The position numbers and the translations under genes are program-made. Positions 33,444 to 51,700 of a stretch of 64,000 nucleotides of DNA are shown here, one piece after another. The first letter of the stretch is position 1. Every line of letters begins with the position of its first letter. The stretch is from Gyromitra esculenta (taxonomy: Eukaryota > Ascomycota > Pezizomycetes > Pezizales > Discinaceae). Below the pieces are notes generated by a model. It was not told where the DNA came from and ran no database searches. It was given only the letters and a program-made list of their open reading frames with translations. Location of the stretch: NCBI GenBank assembly GCA_038503075.1, contig JBCAML010000001.1, forward strand, positions 1,116,001-1,180,000, given 5' to 3'.

Positions 33444-33864
33444 TTTCACGGATGAAACTGGGTAATGGGTTAAGGAGGAGTCGTTGGTAGTAACGAAGGG
33501 TTGTCGGGATATAATGGCTTTGTTGTTCGGTTGTTTCTCGGTTATTGTTAGGGTGTTGTTTGTGTTACGGGAAAGCGGGGTATTTAAGTGAAGGATTTCG
33601 GTCGCTGTGGTTTTCTCTTCTTCTTTCTTTCCTTAAGCAACGTTCTCGTTTACCTTCTCTTGTAAATTGTCGAATACTATCTCGGTTCTATCTCAGAACC
33701 CTCGCTGTCGCTGCCCCCTTCGCCGCACTTATCTCGCCTTGAGATAGACCCCTCGTAGAACTTGTAGAAATACTGCACTCTTCGAACGTGTTAGTACCTC
33801 GCTTAAGTAGCACTGCTCACCCTCAGGGATACTGAAGGGCTTAACGAGGGACTGAACCGTGAGA
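33444..33864 (+). repeat. Solo LTR I
   Basis: 421 bp, TTTCACGG...CCGTGAGA, A-type lineage, flanked by AAGGT (33439-33443, 33865-33869). It separates the upstream ORF of G from its PBS. Confidence 0.9.
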
Positions 33865-33891
33865 AAGGTGTAGATGATGGAAGCAACGTAA

Positions 33892-34254
33892 TCTCACGGT
33901 TGAGTTCCTCGTTAAGCCCTTCAGTATCCCTGATGGTGAGCAGTACTACTTAATGAGGTATCAACGCGCGTTTCTACAGGTCACGATGGACACAAGCGAG
34001 ATAAGCGAGGATTCTAAGATAGAACCGAGATAGTATTTCCGACGAGTACAGGAGAAGGTAAACGAGAACGTTGCTTAAGGAAAGAAAGAGAAAAGAACAA
34101 GAACAACCGAAATCCATCGCTTAAATACCCCGCTTTCCTTAACAAAATTTATAACCGAAAAATAACCGAACAACAAAAAGATTGTACAACCATCCAAACA
34201 ACGATACAACCAGTAACCGATCCACAATTCATTACCCGAAATCAATCCATGAAA
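33892..34254 (-). repeat. 5' LTR of G, internally deleted
   Basis: 363 bp, ends TCTCACGG/CCATGAAA. About 50 bp shorter than its relatives; the deletion lies in the U5/R part (around 33965-34010). Confidence 0.83.
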
Positions 34255-35660: not shown

Positions 35661-37082
35661 TCAATACCTGCGACGGGGGCCATAATAAGCTCTAGGGTTA
35701 GGGTGAGGACCGCGATACCGAGACTGGCGATTATATCTGTACTGGTTCTCCGCACGTTTGTCATCGTCGTCATCGTTCCTCTGTCTCTTAGTGGTGGTAA
35801 CCCGCTGTCTGATCTTTTCCCTTTCATTCTCTTTCTCTGCCTCGAGTTTGCTCTCCCTTTCTTTCGCAGCCTTCTCATCAGAATTTTCGGTCTGTATGAG
35901 TTGACCTTGCTTTCCCCCCTCTAGAGCAGCAGTCTCGGGTTCCTTTGCTGTGATGCCGAAGCGGCTGGCGCGAACGGCTAGTTTCCTAGCATCTTCTTCT
36001 TTAGGGGTGAGCTTTACTTCTACGGCGTAGGTTGACTGTGTGTCGATTACTACATTTGCAATAGGTTGCGGCTTGGCCAGCGCAATTGGTGGATTGGCTG
36101 GTGCGGCGGTGACTACTCCAGCCGATGAAGGGAATAGTGAGGCGATTGAGTTGAATTTGTATCCGGATTTTGTGGTCCTCACGCGGCCTGCGTCAGCTAA
36201 AGCCTTAGGTACGGTGATCTTCTGTGTAGAAGTGGCGATACTAGCAGTGGTACTGGTGCTGCTGTCCGTGATAGCAGGAGCCTTGGACACTGCAATTGAA
36301 GGGGTAGTAGCCACAATAGGAGCAGTAATAGGAGCGGCACTAGGAATAGCAGTGATGTTGCTGTTCGAAGTAGAAAGTGCTGGGGCTCTTGAGAGTGCGT
36401 TGGCGGGAGCGCTGGGAAGAGGTGTTGGGGAAATATTGAGAGGAGTCGTCGAAGAATCGCTGTGAGAATTGATGGTAGCATTAGTTACGGAATTTTGTGG
36501 AGTGTTAGAAGAGGTTTTGATGGTGGAGGAGGCCATGGGTGATGAGGGTTTGGTGATAGAATTTGGAGAGTCTGAAAAGTATGTTGCAGCGATGGATTTG
36601 TACTTGTAACCAGATTTGGTGACTCTCTCGAAGGAAGGAGGAGCAGAAGATAGCTCCTTGGTTGGCTCGGAACAACTCTCTCCAATAGTACCAGCGATTG
36701 GATCTGGTTTAATCTCAGGAGAACTGTCTTTGATGGCATTGAGGGTAGCATCTGTAGTCTTCTCAGGCTTAGCAGGCTCGGTGACGATAGAAGCTACAGG
36801 AGCATCATCATCAATATCACCATCGTCGTCCCAATTGAGGCAATATTCTTCGTCTAATTCATTAGGTAGATGATTTGGGATTGAGGTTGGTGTAGGTTTG
36901 TGAATTTGAGCAGCGGAGACGACTGGAGAGAGGTGGAGTTCGGGCGACGGAGAAGGGTTATTGACCGCGTCATCGGCTTCAAGACGGCTGACGAGCGAAT
37001 CTTTAACGCCATCCGTTGGGAGAAAACGGCTCTCAAGAAGATTGGTGAGCTCCACGACAGACAGATCGGTGTAGTCCTTCAT
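35661..37082 (-). CDS. SAP-domain nucleic-acid-binding protein, Tho1/SARNP-like
   Basis: 473 aa, no intron apparent. The N-terminus (1-38: YTDLSVVELTNLLESRFLPT, then KDSLVSRLEADD) is a SAP domain, a helix-extension-helix that binds DNA/RNA. An acidic segment follows (YCLNWDDDGDIDDD), then a long Ser/Thr/Ala/Pro-rich disordered region with two copies of a TKSGYK[YF][KN]SIA motif (about 160 and 310). Near 365, ARKLAVRASRFGI matches the RxxRFG motif of Tho1/CIP29-type mRNA-export proteins. The tail is basic and Arg/Tyr-rich (RQSRYRGPHPNPRAYYG), typical of RNA contacts. Probably nuclear, in mRNP assembly/export; assignment by motif only. Confidence 0.75.
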   Translation of the reverse strand: MKDYTDLSVVELTNLLESRFLPTDGVKDSLVSRLEADDAVNNPSPSPELHLSPVVSAAQIHKPTPTSIPNHLPNELDEEYCLNWDDDGDIDDDAPVASIVTEPAKPEKTTDATLNAIKDSSPEIKPDPIAGTIGESCSEPTKELSSAPPSFERVTKSGYKYKSIAATYFSDSPNSITKPSSPMASSTIKTSSNTPQNSVTNATINSHSDSSTTPLNISPTPLPSAPANALSRAPALSTSNSNITAIPSAAPITAPIVATTPSIAVSKAPAITDSSTSTTASIATSTQKITVPKALADAGRVRTTKSGYKFNSIASLFPSSAGVVTAAPANPPIALAKPQPIANVVIDTQSTYAVEVKLTPKEEDARKLAVRASRFGITAKEPETAALEGGKQGQLIQTENSDEKAAKERESKLEAEKENEREKIRQRVTTTKRQRNDDDDDKRAENQYRYNRQSRYRGPHPNPRAYYGPRRRY

Positions 37083-38640
37083 GGTTGCAGAATGACGAAA
37101 AGTAGCAACAAAAGTTATAAAACCGGGAGAGAATGTTAAGAAGGGCGTTACTAGTAGATGGACGAAAAGGCGAGGGCGGGTTTGACAGGAGATTTTGCGT
37201 TCAAATTTCGATATACGTGGGAGTTCTGGGAGAGAAGGAGGAAAAGAAAGGAAAGGAAAGGAAAGGAAAGGAAGAAAGATTGGCTTAAGTACTATCTACA
37301 GAGTCCATAGAATTCTTCCCGAGGACTGTGGGTATCTGGAGACACTAATAATATCATTATATCTACTGGCCATTCTCCATTGTATTGTCAATATCAAAAT
37401 CTCGTTCCACCTCACACTCCCATAGAATCGCAAAAGGTCAAGCGCACTAGTGGCTTTACGGGTTCTGGGCAGTGGCCTGGGTTAGGAAGCTTGGCAAAAT
37501 TACCACTAGGAAGAACTTGCTAGTATTTATTATCGAATATAAACGGCCTCATTGGTAGACTCGGCTAGTTAGGAATCTAAAATTTATGAAGTAAAAGAAA
37601 TATATTGGGCTTGAATATGGGTGCACAAGATTACGATCATGCAGGATTGAGGACGCGGCTTAGGAAGCCCCTCCAACGCCAGGAATTGAAGCAAGGCCAC
37701 TCGCTTCGACGACCTAATCTCCAAGTGATGGCAAAGAAAGAAAAAGATATATATTAGGAAAATAATATGTTCACAAAATGATTTAAGTGAATAGAAGAGC
37801 CCGATCAGGTGCGGAGAATTATCCTTCTATGCTAGACTTAGTCCCATTTCATACTGGCTTAGACTGCTCCCCTACAGTACGCAGAAAGCTGCATGAGAGA
37901 GGCTGGGTACAGGGCTAGTGTAATCACTTGGCCTTATCAACCATTTAAATACTAGAATTAGACGTAGATCGTGATTCGTTTCTACTACATGTATATTGGA
38001 ATCATGAACCAAGCTAGAAAGGTAGCTTTGCTTTTAGACTATATCGAGAGTAAGACCCCCATTGCTTCGGGTGCCATAAAAATCGAGGGGTTTTCTCGCG
38101 AGGATACATGTAGCTATAGGTAGACAGTGCACTTGATATAAGTATATTGACCACATGTATGTGCACGTATTATGTACCTGTAGTTAACCTTAACTAAATA
38201 CAGTTCACTCTTATATGCACGGTACGAGAAAAAAGTACTCAGAAACAAGTACATGTATTTGGTGGCAGATCATCGCCAGCTTTCTACCCCCGTGCACTAA
38301 TATCGAAGGATCCACGTATCTTCAAATACATGTAGTTACACCGAGCTCTAAGTATCTTTGAATAGTATTAAATTCTACAACCCGTGCAGTTCTGGCAAGG
38401 ATACCAATCAGGTCATATTTCCGTATAATTAGCTCCGAGAACACATTACGTTGGGAAATATCTGCTATCTCAACGCCGAGATAATAGCCCGTAGCAGCCA
38501 AAAACTCAGAGGTATAAGTCTTAAAATACCCTCCCCTTCTTCCTCCTCCCCCAAATTATTTCCTACCACGCTTTCGGTGTTCTCAATTGAGCCAGCGCCT
38601 CCCCTCGCTAGAGTTCATAGGACTTCTCTAGTCTCCTCCT
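37083..38640. other. Intergenic
   Basis: Upstream region of the SAP gene and AT-rich spacer. A (GGAAA)n microsatellite at about 37238-37275. Palindromic TACATGTA words recur near 37987-38340. No supported gene. Confidence 0.5.
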
Positions 38641-38647
38641 CCCCTCA

Positions 38648-38673
38648 GGCATCTGGTTTCTAAACCAGATGCC
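38648..38673 (+). repeat. Perfect 12-bp hairpin
   Basis: GGCATCTGGTTT pairs with AAACCAGATGCC around a 2-nt loop (would open in RNA to a slightly larger loop). Confidence 0.85.
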
Positions 38674-38680
38674 AGGCCCT

Positions 38681-38702
38681 CGATGGCAACATGTTGCCAT
38701 CG
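38681..38702 (+). repeat. Perfect 10-bp hairpin
   Basis: CGATGGCAAC/GTTGCCATCG, directly after the previous hairpin; G/C flanks can extend it. Confidence 0.85.
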
Positions 38703-38748
38703 GGGATTACTCTCCCTCCCTTCTGTGTCTGGTTTAAGGACATTGCAG

Positions 38749-38808
38749 GTAAGCAAAAAGCCTAAAACTCAACTTTCAGCTACCGCTACTAACTTTTCCT
38801 GTGAACAG
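38749..38808 (+). other. Intron-like segment i0 (60 nt)
   Basis: GTAAGC donor, CTACTAAC branch-like motif at 38786-38793, ACAG acceptor. The first and most canonical of the series. Confidence 0.55.
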
Positions 38809-38926
38809 AGACGAGTTGTGACTGGCGTTGGGACTTCGCCTCTCATTACCGCCGACCGGATGTGGGCGGTGTTAAACCGCCAGCTCTTCCTTCCGAGAAG
38901 GAAGAAACTGTGGATCGGGTGATTTG

Positions 38927-38957
38927 CTGGCTCCCAAAAAAATATTTTGGGAGCCAG
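38927..38957 (+). repeat. Perfect 13-bp hairpin
   Basis: CTGGCTCCCAAAA/TTTTGGGAGCCAG with a 5-nt A/T loop, the strongest stem of the upstream unit. Confidence 0.88.
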
Positions 38958-39142
38958 CGTGACAATGGATGGTTCCGTCGGAAAAGACTGTCTGGGCGTC
39001 ATTGAGGCGTTCAGACAGAGGCATCTGGTCCCGTGCCAGGTGCAGACTAGACTTTGGTGCTATCGAAGCAGATTCTTGCTTTGGGGTTTGAGAGTTCGAG
39101 TAGAGTTCCCTAACCCCTCCTCTCTTGACCGTCCTATTTCTT

Positions 39143-39200
39143 GTAGGAATAACTTTTCCTGTTTTTTCCTTTTTTTGGTATATGTTGCTAATTCGAATAG
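39143..39200 (+). other. Intron-like segment i1 (58 nt)
   Basis: GTAGGA...GCTAATTCGAATAG. Followed at once by hairpin CTCT/AGAG (39201-39216). Confidence 0.5.
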
Positions 39201-39295
39201 CTCTTCTCGTATAGAGGGGTTCTGGGCGGTCTGCTGGTGCGGATGCTGGTGGTCAGGTCCCTCTTTCGGGGGGGGCTTGTCTTGCGGGTCCTCTG

Positions 39296-39319
39296 GTACT
39301 CCATGTTAGCATGGAGTAC
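39296..39319 (+). repeat. 10-bp hairpin GTACTCCATG/CATGGAGTAC
   Basis: Loop TTAG. Further copies: 39570-39593 (one G-T pair), 39885-39908 (one mismatch), 40238-40260 (9 bp), 40661-40684 (perfect). Confidence 0.88.
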
Positions 39320-39418
39320 AGATAGCTTTTTGGTTTCTCGTGTTAAAGCAGAGGTAGTAGCCTGCCTCTGGGGTTGGGGGGAACAATTCTTGTTTCTTTG
39401 TTAACTCTCCCTCTCTTT

Positions 39419-39473
39419 GTAAGAATAGCCCTTCTTGAATTATCTCTAGTCTATATATCGCTAACTGGAGTAG
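39419..39473 (+). other. Intron-like segment i2 (55 nt)
   Basis: GTAAGA...CGCTAACTGGAGTAG. Confidence 0.52.
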
Positions 39474-39714
39474 CCCTACCCTACGGCACTTGCAAACTGT
39501 CGTGTGGGCAGTGGCAGTGGCTTTGGGTCTCCCTTGCGAGGGAGGCCTTCCCTCAATCTGGTGCCCCCGGTACTCCGTGCTTGCATGGAGTACTAATGGT
39601 TCTCGGCTCTCGTCCTAAAGCCAAGAGTTATTCTGGGGGCCATGAGGAAAAAGCGGGCTACTTTTGGTGTTGGGGAGAAAGTTCTTATCTCCTTTGTTGC
39701 CTGCCCTTTCCCTG

Positions 39715-39769
39715 GTAAGAATACAATCCTTTCCGAACTGTCTTTGGAGTATATCGCTAACTGGAATAG
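39715..39769 (+). other. Intron-like segment i3 (55 nt)
   Basis: GTAAGA...CGCTAACTGGAATAG. Followed by hairpin CCTCT/AGAGG (39772-39787). Confidence 0.52.
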
Positions 39770-40047
39770 CTCCTCTAGTTGAAGAGGCTTTGGGCGGCCC
39801 GTTGGCGAGGATGGAGGTAGTCGGATTCTCCTTTTGAGGGGCCTGGCGTCCGGATCCTCGTGTAAGCCCTCGAGCGTTGCTCGGGTTCTCCATGATAACA
39901 TGGAGTACTTATAACCCTTGGCTCTTGCACTGGAGCCAAAGGTTATTCTGGGGCTGCGGGAGCTACGATCTTCTCGAGGTCGAGGCCTGCTGCTTCTGGT
40001 GCCGGGGAAATATATAGTTCCGTGTCTCGCTGACAGTCCTTCTTTTT

Positions 40048-40102
40048 GTAAGAATATAATCCTTCTTGAACTGTCTTCGGTATATATCGCTGACTGGAAC
40101 AG
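40048..40102 (+). other. Intron-like segment i4 (55 nt)
   Basis: GTAAGA...CGCTGACTGGAACAG. Followed by hairpin CTGCA/TGCAG (40106-40120). Confidence 0.52.
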
Positions 40103-40408
40103 TTGCTGCACTTTTTGCAGAAGGGCTGTGGAGGCTCCTAGCGAGGATGATGGGGACGGCAAAGACCGCGGTGATCAGGTCCCCCTTTTGAGGGGTTCTG
40201 TCGTCTGGGCCCTCTCCCGGCCCCTCGAGCGCCTCTGGTACTCCATGTACTATGGAGTACCACCGGATCTTGGCTTAGTTTTTGAGCCAAGAGTTAAGTT
40301 GGAGGGAAGGAAATTTTGATGACCTCAGAGGCAGAGGTCTACTGCTTTTGGTGTTGGGGAAAAATGGTTCCCCTCTACCTCGTCGTGTAGATTGTTGCTG
40401 TTACTCAT

Positions 40409-40462
40409 GTAAGAATATAATCCTTCTTGTATCGTCTTTGGTATATTTACTAACTGGAATAG
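40409..40462 (+). other. Intron-like segment i5 (54 nt)
   Basis: GTAAGA...ACTAACTGGAATAG. Confidence 0.52.
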
Positions 40463-40501
40463 CCCACACAGTTCCCCATACCGTTGGCCGTCCTTCTCCT
40501 C

Positions 40502-40556
40502 GTATGAATATAATCCTTCTTGAGTCGCCTTTAGTATATATTGCTAATTATAATAG
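40502..40556 (+). other. Intron-like segment i6 (55 nt)
   Basis: GTATGA...GCTAATTATAATAG, only 39 nt after i5. Followed by hairpin CTAC/GTAG (40560-40573). Confidence 0.5.
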
Positions 40557-40610
40557 CTGCTACTTATTTGTAGAGAGGTCGGCGGTCGCCTAGCTCGGTC
40601 GGGGGTGAGC

Positions 40611-40638
40611 ACAGGTCTCCCTTGAAAGGGAGACCTGT
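40611..40638 (+). repeat. Perfect 13-bp hairpin
   Basis: ACAGGTCTCCCTT/AAGGGAGACCTGT with a 2-nt loop. The equivalent at 39526-39547 reads GGTCTCCCT/AGGGAGGCC with a T-G pair. Confidence 0.87.
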
Positions 40639-40772
40639 ACAGAGGGTTTTCAGCCTCCTGGTACTCCATGTTAGCATGGAGTACCAATAGCTCTCGGCTC
40701 TCGTTCTGAAGCCGAGGGTTATTCTGGTGGCAAGGGTTCGGTGTCTTTGGGGGGCATTGCCGGCTGCCTTTG

Positions 40773-40827
40773 GTAAGAATACCCTTCCTAAACTGTCTTT
40801 CGTATATATCGCTAACTGGATTAACAG
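40773..40827 (+). other. Intron-like segment i7 (55 nt)
   Basis: GTAAGA...CGCTAACTGGATTAACAG. Followed by hairpin CTCT/AGAG (40828-40847). Confidence 0.52.
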
Positions 40828-41000
40828 CTCTCTATCTGCTTTCAGAGGGCTGGTAGGCGGCCTCTAGTGGGCTAGGGTGGGCGTGGTTTAACAACTGCGT
40901 GTGGTCTTCTTTGCGAGGGAGACCCACCACCCTAGCTCGCGAGCGCCTCCGATAGAATGGAGTGCCAGTGACTCGCTCCCCGCTCGTGCTGGAGCGGAGA

Positions 41001-43010
41001 GCCACTCCGGGGGACGGTCCCGGGGGTCCTGCAGTCGAGACTTTTGCCCGTTCTCCTAGGATGACATGTTCCTAGGGGGAGCATTTGAGCATATTGAGAT
41101 GGGAGCGGTGGCATAAATTAGTTAACTGATTTGTTGCCTTTTCTCCTGTTTCGCGGGATTGTCTGTTTTCTTGTAGCTCTACATAGGTTGTTTTATTTCC
41201 CTCGCACCATCGTCAATGATTTCGAGTTGTTTTCTAGGATTAAATTAAAAGAGTTCGGTTTGGTATAGTGTTTGCACCTGCGAGTGACGAATCATGTTTA
41301 CGGCTAGACCCTTCATCTCACATAATCCCCGAGGCAGCCTCTAATTAGTCGAACTGAGAATAACCCCCACCTTCGCTCTATATGGGATGAAGTACTAACT
41401 AGACGATCGTCGATACCTAAAACCATGGCATCCACTCGCAGCTCGTTTTATCCCTAGTATCCGGATGTAGGTTACCAGTGGTCCCGATCTTTCCGCTCTG
41501 GAGATTCATGATCCGAGATACCATAAATTTTACTTGAGTGAATATAAAATACTTAAGATATCAAAATCAGAATATCATTAAGCCCTTCACCGTCCCCAAT
41601 GAATCGAAAACCTAAAACCTAGAGCGGATTCTCCAAAATTAACAGCGGCGTCTAGATAGTGACCCCTATCATCAATCCTCCTCCACTCTTAGTACAGGCA
41701 CTGATAAATCGCCCCGGCTTGTGATTCACCCTAAAGTATCCTCTATCAAAATTTCTATCACCATTGTCTCGGCTATCTACGTGTAATTCCCTCCTTTGAG
41801 CTAGGTTTCGTAAAAGAAGGCGATTTTGTCTCAAAAGAGGAGACTAAGATAACGTAAGATAACGGAATATATAGAATTTATTATATGAAGTGGGCCGAGG
41901 AGTTAGCTCAGATTTGACTGTATGAAGCGGAGAGTATAGGTTTTATCATGTCAACAAAAAATAGGATATGGTCTAAGAAATTTTGAAGCAGTTCGTTTCT
42001 GTCGAAAACTTAAATCGGGCTTTGATAGACACGAGTCGCCGTAATAGGGTTTCACATGTGTAAATTTGGATTGCCCAAAGTTACCGCCTATAGCTGAGAT
42101 GTACGTTAGGACTTTAGGTGAGTGTCTTTAGCTATTCAAGAATCAAATTGCGTTTTTTTCCCTCCCTGCGCAGCTCAGTATATCCGAAAAAATCTCAAAC
42201 CTAATAACTAGGCCCTTACTTGCTGGCCCCCACCGATCTAGAGCGAGCCGGAATTGTTCCTTTCACCCCCGTTTTGAGTATCCGCTCTAGAGGGTGGTCC
42301 TCAAAAACACTGAGAAAACATCGGGACTACTGCTACTTTTTGAGAAACTATTCCGCCATATTAAGTTGGATTCGATTCTCTCGATACTAGCAAGAGCATT
42401 TTATAATGGGTCAGTGGAGACGATCCGAGTGTCTCGACTTCGGTCCGATGTTGTCTTTGCGCTCGTTTTCTATTTCTGTGAGCAGCAAACAGGCGATGGC
42501 AGATATAGATGAACTTGGAACGGACTGTGAGAGATGAGAGAATGTACTCTGGCAATACCATCCGGAGGCATCTTCATTGTCGAAAAGATCCTTCTAAACC
42601 CCATCGAGAGAATTGGACGATGGGGTTTTCAGGTGGGCTGTTGCGGCGAGGGTTGTTGATTCCTAGCATTGAAGGATCCAGGGTGTGGAAAAAGGGAAGA
42701 CGCTGAAGAATACATGTGAGTACGCCAAGTTGAGCGATAGTGATGAAATGTTGGTTTTCCCACGCGGCAGAGCTTGTAGATGTTTGATGGGGCCATTATG
42801 TGAACCTCGGATCACCTCTCTCACCAAATGTCTGTATAATGCATTGTACTCATGAGATATGACTCGCTTGCTGATCTGGTTCGGCGAGTGCAACAAAGCC
42901 TATATTCGCTGAAACACATGACCCAGTCAGGCGATAGAATTCGCCGACAAACCTTGGCATGATTTTTACTTAAATACCGCTTCAACCTCTCTCTCCTTTC
43001 AATTCCCCAT
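41001..43010. other. No gene recognised
   Basis: A 2-kb stretch with only short, unconvincing frames. Nothing recognisable as protein, RNA gene or mobile element. Confidence 0.45.
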
Positions 43011-43013
43011 CGT

Positions 43014-43214
43014 GGAGCCAGCACCATCACGCTGCACCTCAAGACTTTGTGCCTCTTGCTAGGGTGTAGTTAGAACTTGTAAATATCATGGATCCAGCAC
43101 CGACTACGCCACACCTAAAGACGTAGTGCCTCTTGCTAGGGTGTGGTTAGAACTGTAGAGCACGGCTACTCTCTCTGCACCTCAAGGGTTTCGTGCACCT
43201 TGAAGGGTGTCAGG
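43014..43214. repeat. Diverged tandem repeat, about 70-bp unit, 2.5 copies
   Basis: Units at about 43014-43089 and 43090-43158 share CCAGCACC...GTGCCTCTTGCTAGGGTGT[AG]GTTAGAACT; a partial copy follows at 43177-43214. Within units CACACCT and AGGGTGTG can pair. Confidence 0.7.
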
Positions 43215-43560
43215 GAATAATTTTTGGAATACCTATGTCACTGGTATTACACTGCCTCCAGTTGATATCTTTTTTTTTTTCATTGTCTTCCTGGCCGTTG
43301 TGCGAGGGGATGAAGAAAGAAAGAAAAATATGTTGCTGTGGGATGTTTGGGAGGAATACTATTGACGCTGAATTCGGATAGCTCTCTCCTGCCTATCTAA
43401 TTCATCTCCATTTCATGTTTTATTTCTTGCCGAACATCGTATGAGCCAGTGAAGACTCAGCCTGCATTTACTTTTCTGTCAAGCGTTGGATACAGGCCAT
43501 GACCTGAAGCTTCTCAATAGACGATGCAGCTAAATTGTCATCCTGGAGGCTACTTATATG

Positions 43561-48736: not shown

Positions 48737-51700
48737 TCAATAACTCTCCTCAAAGTACTCGATATGTTTGCGCTCCTCAGCTAGGCAGCCCACCACCGCA
48801 TCTCTCACGATATCAACCAGCACCGATGGCCCACAAGACATGACTGCCATCCGCCCATTAAGCCCCTTCTGTTCTGACATAAGGATATCCGGAATTTTAG
48901 GGCGTTTATATTTAATTCCTGGAAGCCTCTTCTGTCCTTCCTTGGTCCTTGTGACGTATAACTGCATGCTGATGTCGGCTCTGGTCAAGCAGCCTTTCGG
49001 AAACTTTCTCGCAACCAAGTTCTCCACGAGCTCCTCTTCCTTAGCTGTCCACAAGAATACGAGTCTGCGTGTAAGCGTCCGGTTTTCACGGACTCGTTCC
49101 ATGTAGTCGACCAGGTAAGGAAGTATCGTTGTGATTCCGACTCCACCAGCGATGAGGACAGCAGTCTCGTATAGGTGCAGAGGATGACTAACGCCATAAG
49201 CACCCTCAATGAAACACTTTATCTCCAGTTCCCTCCCTCGTGGGAAACCGTGTATTTCGTTCTGTTTTTCGTGCTCACGTATCCTGTTTGCAAGAGTTGC
49301 CGTCATACCTTTCCGTGGCTTGATGAAAAAGGTAAGCTTTGGCCGCTGAGCGCCTTTGCGGGTAGTGCTCGCAATCGTACTAAGAGCGGTTTGATCAATC
49401 TCGACGAATTCATCCTCGTCCTCGTCCTCGTCCTCCTCTTCTTCCTCTTCTTCCTCTTCCTCCTCTTCCTCCTCTTCCTCCTGCTCAACTTCCACCTCCT
49501 GAACGATTGATAATACTTTATCTTTCCTACTTTCAATATCCCCTCTCCTCACCTCGCTCCTTTCCGACTCCTCGGTTTTTTCTGACTCTTCAGTTTTCTC
49601 GAACTCCTCAATTTCACCTCTTTCCGACTCCTCAATCTTCTCTGACTCTTCGATCTCCCTCACCTCTTCAGCATCTCCTTCAGATGGATCTTTTTTTTCC
49701 GACTCTATCGTTATATCGGCAAACTCCTCGTTCTGACTCTCTTCCCCTCGATCGGTGTCTTCTGTATCTGAACCCTTAGAGCGGCCTCTCCTCTCAGAAT
49801 CTTCGCCGTTCTTCCTCCTCGTCTTCTTCGCCTCCTTGGCTTTGGCCAGATTTTTCTCTCTCGCCATTTCTCTCTCCTTCGCTCTCTGTTTGGTGCTCGA
49901 CTTCCGCTCTGGCGCGCCCGAAGCCAAAGCAGAAGGATCGACTGATTCTCTCTCCCTCGTCCTCGACTTGCTGCTCGATCTGGTACTCGACTTTCGCTCT
50001 AGTGCGGCATCAGTCGATTCTTTCTCCTTCGCCCTCGGCTTGCTGCTCGATCTAGTGCTCGATCTAGTGCTCGATTTCCGTTCTAGTGTGGCATCAGCCG
50101 ATTCTTTCTCCTTCGCCCTCGATTTGCTGCTCGACTTGGTGCTCGACTTGGTGCTCGGCCTCCGCTCTAGTGCGCCTGGGGCCAGGGTGGAGTTTTCTAC
50201 CAGTTCTTTCCCCTTTCCATTATTTGTCACAAGGTATATATCTTTAGTTTTCCCCGTTTGCTTAACGATATATATATGCCTTTCCTGCTTCTTCTCCTTC
50301 GATGCCACCGTCTCCTTCGCTACTGCTATATCTTTGGTGTCCGAAACGCCTTTTAATAGACCCAGGTCTTTGAGGGTTGCCATTTGCCTATTCGGCGTAT
50401 CTTTACGTTTGTTGTGCTTTTCGCTCATAACCCTCGCCCGCGGTGGCAGTCTTGGTTCCCGCAGGGAATCGCTCAATGACCCCTGTAACGACCTTTTGAT
50501 ACGGGGAGCATTCTGCGGCATCGCAGTCGATACCGGGCCGCTGGATCTCCAACCAGCGGCAGTGAATGGATGGCACTCCCAGAATCTCCAGGTGCCGCTG
50601 AGGAAAACGAAGTAGTGCGCGCCAGGGAAGTAGCCGACATCTTCTGCAGATGGGTACACGGTGAGTTGGATCACATCGGTGCCTTTAACAAACTTTGCGC
50701 GTGCGAGGTGGTGATTTTGGGGGTCCCTAGAGAACGCCCCCGAGTTGAGAATGATGAGTCTGAGGAGACGGGTGAACCGGTCAAAAGCCCACATAGCTAT
50801 ACAAGCCCAGACCCAAGGATGATACATCCCTGTCGCTGAAAGTTTTAGGTGGCTGTTGTTTAATTGTAAGCAACTATATGTGGTTTAGAGCTGGGTTGGT
50901 AAATGACTCACTAGTACAAAAAGGTAAGGAACATAATAACACCCAGAATGTGGCAGAAGAGGAAGAACTCGTACGCCTTCTTCCTAAATGGAAAGACAGA
51001 AAGACAAAGAATTAATCCCATTACAATCATAGCCTAAAAAATATGTAAGTGGTTGTCTCATCTCTTACTGGTCTAGTATGTAATAGGCAAGACTCACTGA
51101 AACACCGTTCCACCAATAGGCTGGATTCCATCTTCTAGCCCCATCACCAACTACAACAGCTGGATTAGACAATATTCTAGCAAATTTTTGTGCCATAGAA
51201 CAATTTTTGGAACGTACTCTGATACATATAAACAGCGTAAGCAACAGAGTGTACCATTGCCATCAATGCTGATACTCTGGCAATCCACTTGTGAAACACA
51301 TGGAAGGTTCCATAAGGCCACCCAGTCAGCCAGACTAAGAAGTCGTTTCTCCCTGCAAGAAGGAAGAATATAGGCATATTCCACAATGATAAGACACCTG
51401 CCCTGTCTGCAATTAACTTGGTTCCGTCAATTACTCCAACCTCACCGTGGTGAACCACGAGGAATATGATGTTGATGAGCCAGTAGCTAGCCACTAGCAC
51501 CGTCTCCATTCTTGTCGGAAATGTGTACCAGCCAATTGGTTGTCGGTGTCGTCCTCCAAATAGCGCTGGATACATAACCCATCGTTTGAAACTGTTCGTA
51601 AGGGCGCTCGGAGGATATATCTTCCGTATTGATCGGTTTTGTGATTCTGCGTCGACTGAGAACCCGATTCGAGAATCGCGTACGGCGGTCCAAATAGTTC

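Follow-up and report, generated by a model that had tools for sequence, protein, structure and literature searches.

A tandem array of hairpin modules and short introns in Gyromitra esculenta, a candidate spliced and structured long non-coding RNA

The window considered here is a 64-kb piece (contig JBCAML010000001.1, positions 1,116,001 to 1,180,000 of assembly GCA_038503075.1) of the 47.1-Mb genome of Gyromitra esculenta, which is assembled in 23 contigs, and it harbors an array in which hairpins alternate with short intron-like segments on the plus strand. The original prediction, made from the letters of positions 38641 to 41000, had seen this alternation and proposed either an undescribed structured RNA or an introner array; the array extends beyond 41000, to about 41080-41130. 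Eight putative introns separate nine predicted exons (Table 1). Seven of them, referred to as repeat introns, are related copies of 54-58 nt, whereas the most upstream one differs in sequence and has 60 nt, so that the length of 54-60 nt proposed for these segments holds, and all seven starts that had been listed are exact. The repeat introns follow each other at start-to-start distances of 276, 296, 333, 361, 93 and 271 bp, which agrees with the unit length of 270-360 bp claimed originally, except for the step of 93.

The donor GTANGAATA, the branch box CTRAY and the acceptor YAG are each found in 7/7 repeat introns. Among the copies, the donor varies solely at position 4 and the branch box solely at R and Y, and five of the acceptors read TAG and the other two CAG. 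Variation confined to such positions is what fungal splicing tolerates. Genome-wide, a pattern that combined this layout with the donor GTAAGT gave 136 matches versus 52 in a reversed control, and short introns of such a type are therefore common in this genome; a pattern for the branch-to-acceptor spacing, with 15 matches versus 10 in its reversed control over 261 kb, was uninformative. Several repeat-intron starts between 39143 and 40827 can also fold, by eye, into a small hairpin containing the donor, of which one pair is changed on both sides in unit 1 (likewise by eye); the stem scan recovered such a stem at one site, 40407-40432.

The exons of units 1-4, 6 and 7 share a module whose hairpins, delimited by eye, follow the order P0 (at the acceptor), P1, A, B and D, the last of these not being seen in unit 6, which has the strongest P1, A and B of all units. 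With the limits chosen here, P0 begins two or three bases before the end of the intron in 5/6 units, and some of these intron bases are paired in units 1, 4 and 7; in the last exon, the first three P0 bases are the final three of the intron. When the exons were folded locally by program, hairpin A came back in units 1-4 and 6 and hairpin B in units 3, 4, 6 and 7 (in part also in unit 2), whereas other stems took the place of P1 in units 3 and 4. The exon of unit 5 is taken, by eye, as the remnant of a unit with an internal deletion, and the hairpin chain of exon 1 may be an older module.

Table 1. Predicted exons and introns of the array, in window coordinates
Feature	Positions	Strand	Description
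Exon 0	38600-38748	+	38600 is the edge of the scan; two near-perfect hairpins, 38648-38673 and 38678-38705 (stem scan, local fold)
Intron 1	38749-38808	+	GTAAGC...CTACTAAC...CAG, 60 nt, unlike the other seven (sequence signals)
Exon 1	38809-39142	+	Chain of hairpins with their own sequences: 38885-38905, 38926-38958, 38988-39018, 39021-39043, 39083-39117
Repeat intron, unit 1	39143-39200	+	GTAGGAATA...CTAAT...TAG, 58 nt
Exon, unit 1	39201-39418	+	P0; P1 39254-39279; A 39296-39319; no good B; D 39376-39400
Repeat intron, unit 2	39419-39473	+	GTAAGAATA...CTAAC...TAG, 55 nt
Exon, unit 2	39474-39714	+	P0; P1 39526-39547; A 39570-39593; B 39595-39632; D 39670-39696
Repeat intron, unit 3	39715-39769	+	55 nt
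Exon, unit 3	39770-40047	+	P0; weak P1; A 39885-39908; B 39911-39946; D
Repeat intron, unit 4	40048-40102	+	Branch CTGAC, acceptor CAG, 55 nt
Exon, unit 4	40103-40408	+	P0; weak P1; A 40236-40262; B 40268-40292; D 40354-40376
Repeat intron, unit 5	40409-40462	+	54 nt
Exon, unit 5	40463-40501	+	39 nt, folds weakly
Repeat intron, unit 6	40502-40556	+	GTATGAATA...CTAAT...TAG, 55 nt
Exon, unit 6	40557-40772	+	P1 40609-40640; A 40659-40686; B 40687-40722; no D seen
Repeat intron, unit 7	40773-40827	+	Acceptor CAG, 55 nt
Last exon (unit 7)	40828-41130	+	3' limit approximate; P0 40825-40852; P1 40903-40924; diverged A 40941-40967; B 40975-41002; D 41051-41080

The claim that the units diverged in sequence and kept their layout is borne out in its essentials. 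Compared across units 1-4, 6 and 7 (no shuffled null), identity is highest in the intron (0.74, and 0.80 from branch to acceptor), hairpin A (0.71), P1 (0.68) and B (0.63), and lowest after B (0.51), in the 23 nt preceding the donor (0.475), in the block from P0 to P1 (0.44) and in the linker between P1 and A (0.42). Gapped pairwise identities, which are inflated by cheap gaps, place the introns at 0.80 versus a null of 0.71 and hairpin A at 0.82 versus 0.70; in the same comparison the intron interior is barely above its null, hairpin B equals it (0.68 versus 0.68) and the exon linkers do not exceed it.

Hairpin content was assessed with a stem scan of 38600-41120 that treats G-T and A-C alike, using as controls 60 dinucleotide shuffles and 77 genome chunks of 2521 bases taken from 20 other places (3/80 were dropped for N). 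The array contains 18 stems of at least 9 bp, compared with 2.07 ± 1.33 in the shuffles and 1.92 ± 1.52 in the chunks, where the maximum was 7 in either control, and 32 stems of at least 7 bp, compared with 14.55 ± 4.13 and 13.43 ± 3.77, which confirms the serial hairpins of the original prediction. Among stems with loops of 3-12 nt, the longest has 14 bp if only uninterrupted Watson-Crick pairing is counted and 16 bp if wobbles and mismatches are allowed, and longer composite stems may form near 40864-40943. When a fold was slid along the window, the 13 positions within the locus had mean z values of -2.3 on the plus and -3.0 on the minus strand, versus -0.2 on either strand for the 307 positions outside it. 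The unspliced 5' part (38640-39142) folds with z = -7.7, and the joined exons with z = -8.0 when intron 1 is taken one base short and z = -10.0 when it is corrected and fresh shuffles are used. The joined introns 2-8, in contrast, fold no better than shuffles (z = -0.6), although at 387 nt they are shorter than the joined exons and this z has less power.

Stems that are kept as RNA tolerate G-U pairs on the transcribed strand, and not A-C mismatches, so that the two kinds of wobble can reveal which strand is folded. Within stems of at least 7 bp, the locus has 34 G-T versus 6 A-C, while elsewhere in the window the counts are 280 and 278. G and T are abundant in the locus, and the totals in its shuffles are 944 G-T and 541 A-C; against this ratio the bias still gives a binomial p of 0.0025, and the difference was reached by 0/60 shuffles. 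The splice signals sit on the plus strand as well, the same strand as the wobble bias. Therefore, the bias points to a plus-strand RNA, and the folded molecule is probably transcribed from the strand that also bears the introns.

A coding function on this strand finds no support in the sequence. The longest stop-free run of the spliced plus strand spans 103 codons, versus a mean of 128 in 300 shuffles, and the three longest runs have no Pfam match, in line both with the absence of a coding frame that is asked of a spliced long non-coding RNA (lncRNA) and with the original statement that no protein frame survives across the units. A known RNA family was also considered and rejected: none of the 4227 Rfam families reached its gathering score across the window, and the best match within 38400-41400 (E 0.94) is at chance level.

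The array appears to exist once. Searches of the own genome at the DNA level, in which the best candidates only were scored, used 38560-39142, 39300-40000 and 40557-41250 as queries (leaving out 39143-39299 and 40001-40556) and found no place beyond the locus among those candidates; the flanks 37100-38560 and 41250-43250 matched only themselves among theirs. A mobile element was rejected on this basis, as the three stretches and both flanks matched just the locus or themselves. Genome-wide, an intron pattern had 4/4 of its matches in the locus (by design, it fits four of the seven repeat introns) and a longer one had 1/1, and the pattern of hairpin A had four copies within the locus and two places elsewhere with three mismatches. 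A model of A plus B and one of the intron, run over 264 kb, had best matches outside the locus with E values of 0.24 and 0.036. A plasmid collection held no match to the locus, and a palindrome pattern occurred 0 times in viral contigs and once in a Clostridiales genome, which is taken as chance.

The anatomy described above is likely and well supported, and from it we infer transcription, splicing, protein binding and function. With moderate confidence, the locus is read as a multi-exon, spliced lncRNA gene of the plus strand, built of tandem structured modules, whose product would act as a multivalent scaffold or decoy for RNA-binding proteins. What speaks for this at the level of sequence is the excess of stems, the wobble bias, the contrast in folding between exons and introns, the type of variation in the splice signals, the lack of a long frame and the lack of a second copy in the searches made. 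The proposed model is that the plus strand gives rise to an lncRNA from which eight small introns would be removed to leave about 2 kb of RNA. Its exons would largely form a tandem row of about six diverged copies of one module, consisting of P0, P1, A, B, usually D, and the next intron. The array would have grown by tandem duplication of this exon-plus-intron unit, and the fold would have been retained while much of the sequence drifted, with the exception of hairpin A and the introns. The repeated hairpins may then offer several sites to one or a few RNA-binding proteins. Such multivalent binding is put forward as a proposal for the most likely way of working, by analogy with roX and meiRNA and with no kinship claimed.

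A further proposal, to which we assign a low probability, is that folding and splicing are coupled. Bases preceding the donor can pair beyond P0 of the next exon, over 7-11 bp in 5/7 repeat introns (arms chosen by eye). Permuted arms did as well in 83/720 cases with six introns, 335/5040 with seven and 1288/40320 with eight (intron 1 taken one base short), and against shuffled arms values below 0.06 were obtained at 2/8 introns, namely introns 5 and 8, so a stem across the splice junctions is no more than suggestive. If coupling existed, the conserved intron would bound each module, the last bases of the exon would pair past P0 of the next one, and intron removal would close the base stem of the module, so that the array would be a chain of RNA modules assembled by splicing.

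Several observations weigh against the reading as a structured lncRNA gene. All analyses concern one genome only. The paired share of the spliced bases is barely above that of shuffles (61% versus 58 ± 1.3% in 40 shuffles, for pairs spanning up to 42 nt), so the earlier statement that nearly every stretch belongs to a hairpin or an intron was too strong; the unusual feature is the completeness, perfection and stability of the stems, not the paired share. The layout is not uniform either: B is poor in unit 1, P1 is weak in units 3 and 4, A is diverged in unit 7 and unit 5 is a 39-nt remnant. Regarding the strand, stems of at least 9 bp alone have 14 G-T versus 5 A-C, which is not significant (p = 0.24), the bias is owed in part to base composition, related units provide non-independent pairs, and a C-to-T mutation bias linked to transcription may contribute as well. 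Stability does not give the strand, because the exons fold well in antisense too (z = -9.5); the strand call thus depends on wobbles and splice signals. The smaller power of the intron fold belongs here too, as does the conservation of the intron interiors beyond what can be explained here: in an ungapped test the interior without its signals has an identity of 0.67 versus 0.52 ± 0.01 (0/500 shuffles), the 21 nt before the donor (0.56 versus 0.51) and after the acceptor (0.49 versus 0.45) being slightly above shuffles.

Covariation adds little. The comparison with shuffles that the original prediction had named among its refuting conditions came out partly against it, since hairpins B and P1, with four sequences each, have two and one pairs changed on both sides, no excess over shuffles (190/500 and 337/500). 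Exchanging arms between units gave a better mean energy to native pairing in 5/5 hairpin classes, and the assignments as good as the native one were 17/720, 37/720, 36/720, 48/720 and 6/120 (Fisher combined p = 6e-4), with hairpin limits picked by eye, which favors native pairing. Taken together, structure is well supported by the excess of stems, less so by the strand bias and weakly by covariation.

The same row of hairpins could have arisen without any role for RNA. In a decaying or neutral repeat, they would come from inverted duplication or template switching at the DNA level, and the introns would be remnants of an older gene, which fits the divergence of the units and a covariation not above shuffles; since the wobbles are biased 34:6, the exons are structured while the introns are not, and splice signals vary solely at tolerated positions in 7/7 copies, this origin is considered unlikely. 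Many hairpins within one probable transcript would also suit a precursor of small RNAs, cut by Dicer or another RNase III into many microRNA-like RNAs (milRNAs), whose output the tandem layout would multiply, and fungi do make small RNAs from hairpins (PMC9757828, in part). Apart from possible composite stems near 40864-40943, though, the single stems are short, with the 14 bp or, including wobbles and mismatches, 16 bp given above. Dicer wants roughly 20 bp or more of stem. The Rfam microRNA matches (E 1.5 and 4.2) are moreover at chance level, and we regard a precursor role as rather unlikely.

It is quite improbable that the locus encodes a protein, on the minus strand or through a different pattern of splicing, with the hairpins being incidental. 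On the minus strand, 193 codons in a row are free of stops, which two sets of 300 shuffles place at p = 0.027 and p = 0.01; the open reading frame (ORF) in this run has 189 amino acids and covers units 2-4 (39593-40162). However, neither this ORF nor the three longest spliced plus-strand runs have a Pfam match; 5/9 predicted exons have a length that three does not divide (the outer limits of the first and last exon being arbitrary), and the splice signals seen are on the plus strand. The second half of the original interpretation, an introner array in which a mobile intron was repeatedly copied into a structured gene, fares worst and is very improbable. Introners are mobile introns found in unrelated genes, and introner-like elements exist in fungi (PMC4457414, in part). 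As in Dothideomycetes, a single genome here carries a number of short spliceosomal introns that resemble one another, with GT...CTRAY...YAG at the bounds of 7/7, and these introns are the most similar block among the units. Against this, they are seven diverged copies within one locus, with all pattern matches (4/4 and 1/1) inside it and no copies elsewhere in the 47 Mb among the best candidates scored; they are only 54-58 nt long and unstructured, and they occupy an equivalent place in every unit, which is what joint duplication of intron and exon would produce. What stands of the original interpretation is therefore the undescribed structured RNA, for which the excess of stems, the plus-strand wobbles, structure in exons and not in introns, the missing frame and the missing Rfam match all speak.

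Among known systems, the lncRNAs roX1 and roX2 of Drosophila carry repeated stem-loops with a short shared motif, recognizable at near-random identity, and roX2 has introns (PMC4719309, in part). The likeness lies in lncRNAs with repeated similar stem-loops, here with the positions of P1, A and B following one another in each of units 1-4, 6 and 7. The difference is that at this locus the whole exon-plus-intron module is repeated; no sequence relation is claimed. The elements of meiRNA (sme2) of Schizosaccharomyces pombe are DSR motifs, short sequence motifs bound by Mmi1, whereas at this locus hairpins are what repeats. The meiRNA has a region enriched in a protein-binding motif, which acts as a decoy for that protein (PMC4077057, in part). 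Fungi also have 17 candidates for conserved structural RNAs, that is, noncoding RNAs defined by structure, but these are H/ACA small nucleolar RNAs, intergenic elements, and structures of untranslated regions or introns (PMC8216456, in part), and the words 'tandem', 'spliced' and 'repeat' are absent from the main text of that article, as are 'hairpin' and 'stem-loop' from the main text of a review on fungal lncRNAs (PMC12566771). No fungal RNA of comparable build was recognized in the literature surveyed, within the entries listed, which together with the Rfam result agrees with the earlier remark that no named fungal element has this organization.

Several Ty3-type retroelement pieces (gag, protease, reverse transcriptase, RNase H and integrase, with a chromodomain in two of them) were found among the ORFs scanned at 2090-33319, and therefore the array adjoins a retroelement-rich stretch. 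A near-perfect foldback of about 170 bp at 33790-33960, with 84 match pieces genome-wide (both strands counted), is probably an element resembling miniature inverted-repeat transposable elements (MITE-like). The nearest ORF of its size upstream of the array is on the minus strand (35661-37082, 473 amino acids) and has a SAP domain match under the curated cut-off. Further downstream, tandem repeats at 49413-50174, including units of 84 bp and 12 bp, lie within a minus-strand ORF (48737-50827) with FAD- and NAD-binding domains of the ferric reductase type.

If the fold of the array has been kept while the sequence was lost, the locus would be a clear case of a fungal lncRNA with its function in structure. 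The repetition of the module would permit covariation tests within one genome and, with relatives, between species, and modules bounded by introns would provide a simple system for the growth of RNA genes by duplication of exon plus intron. Coupled folding and splicing, if true, would represent a new architecture of fungal RNA gene.
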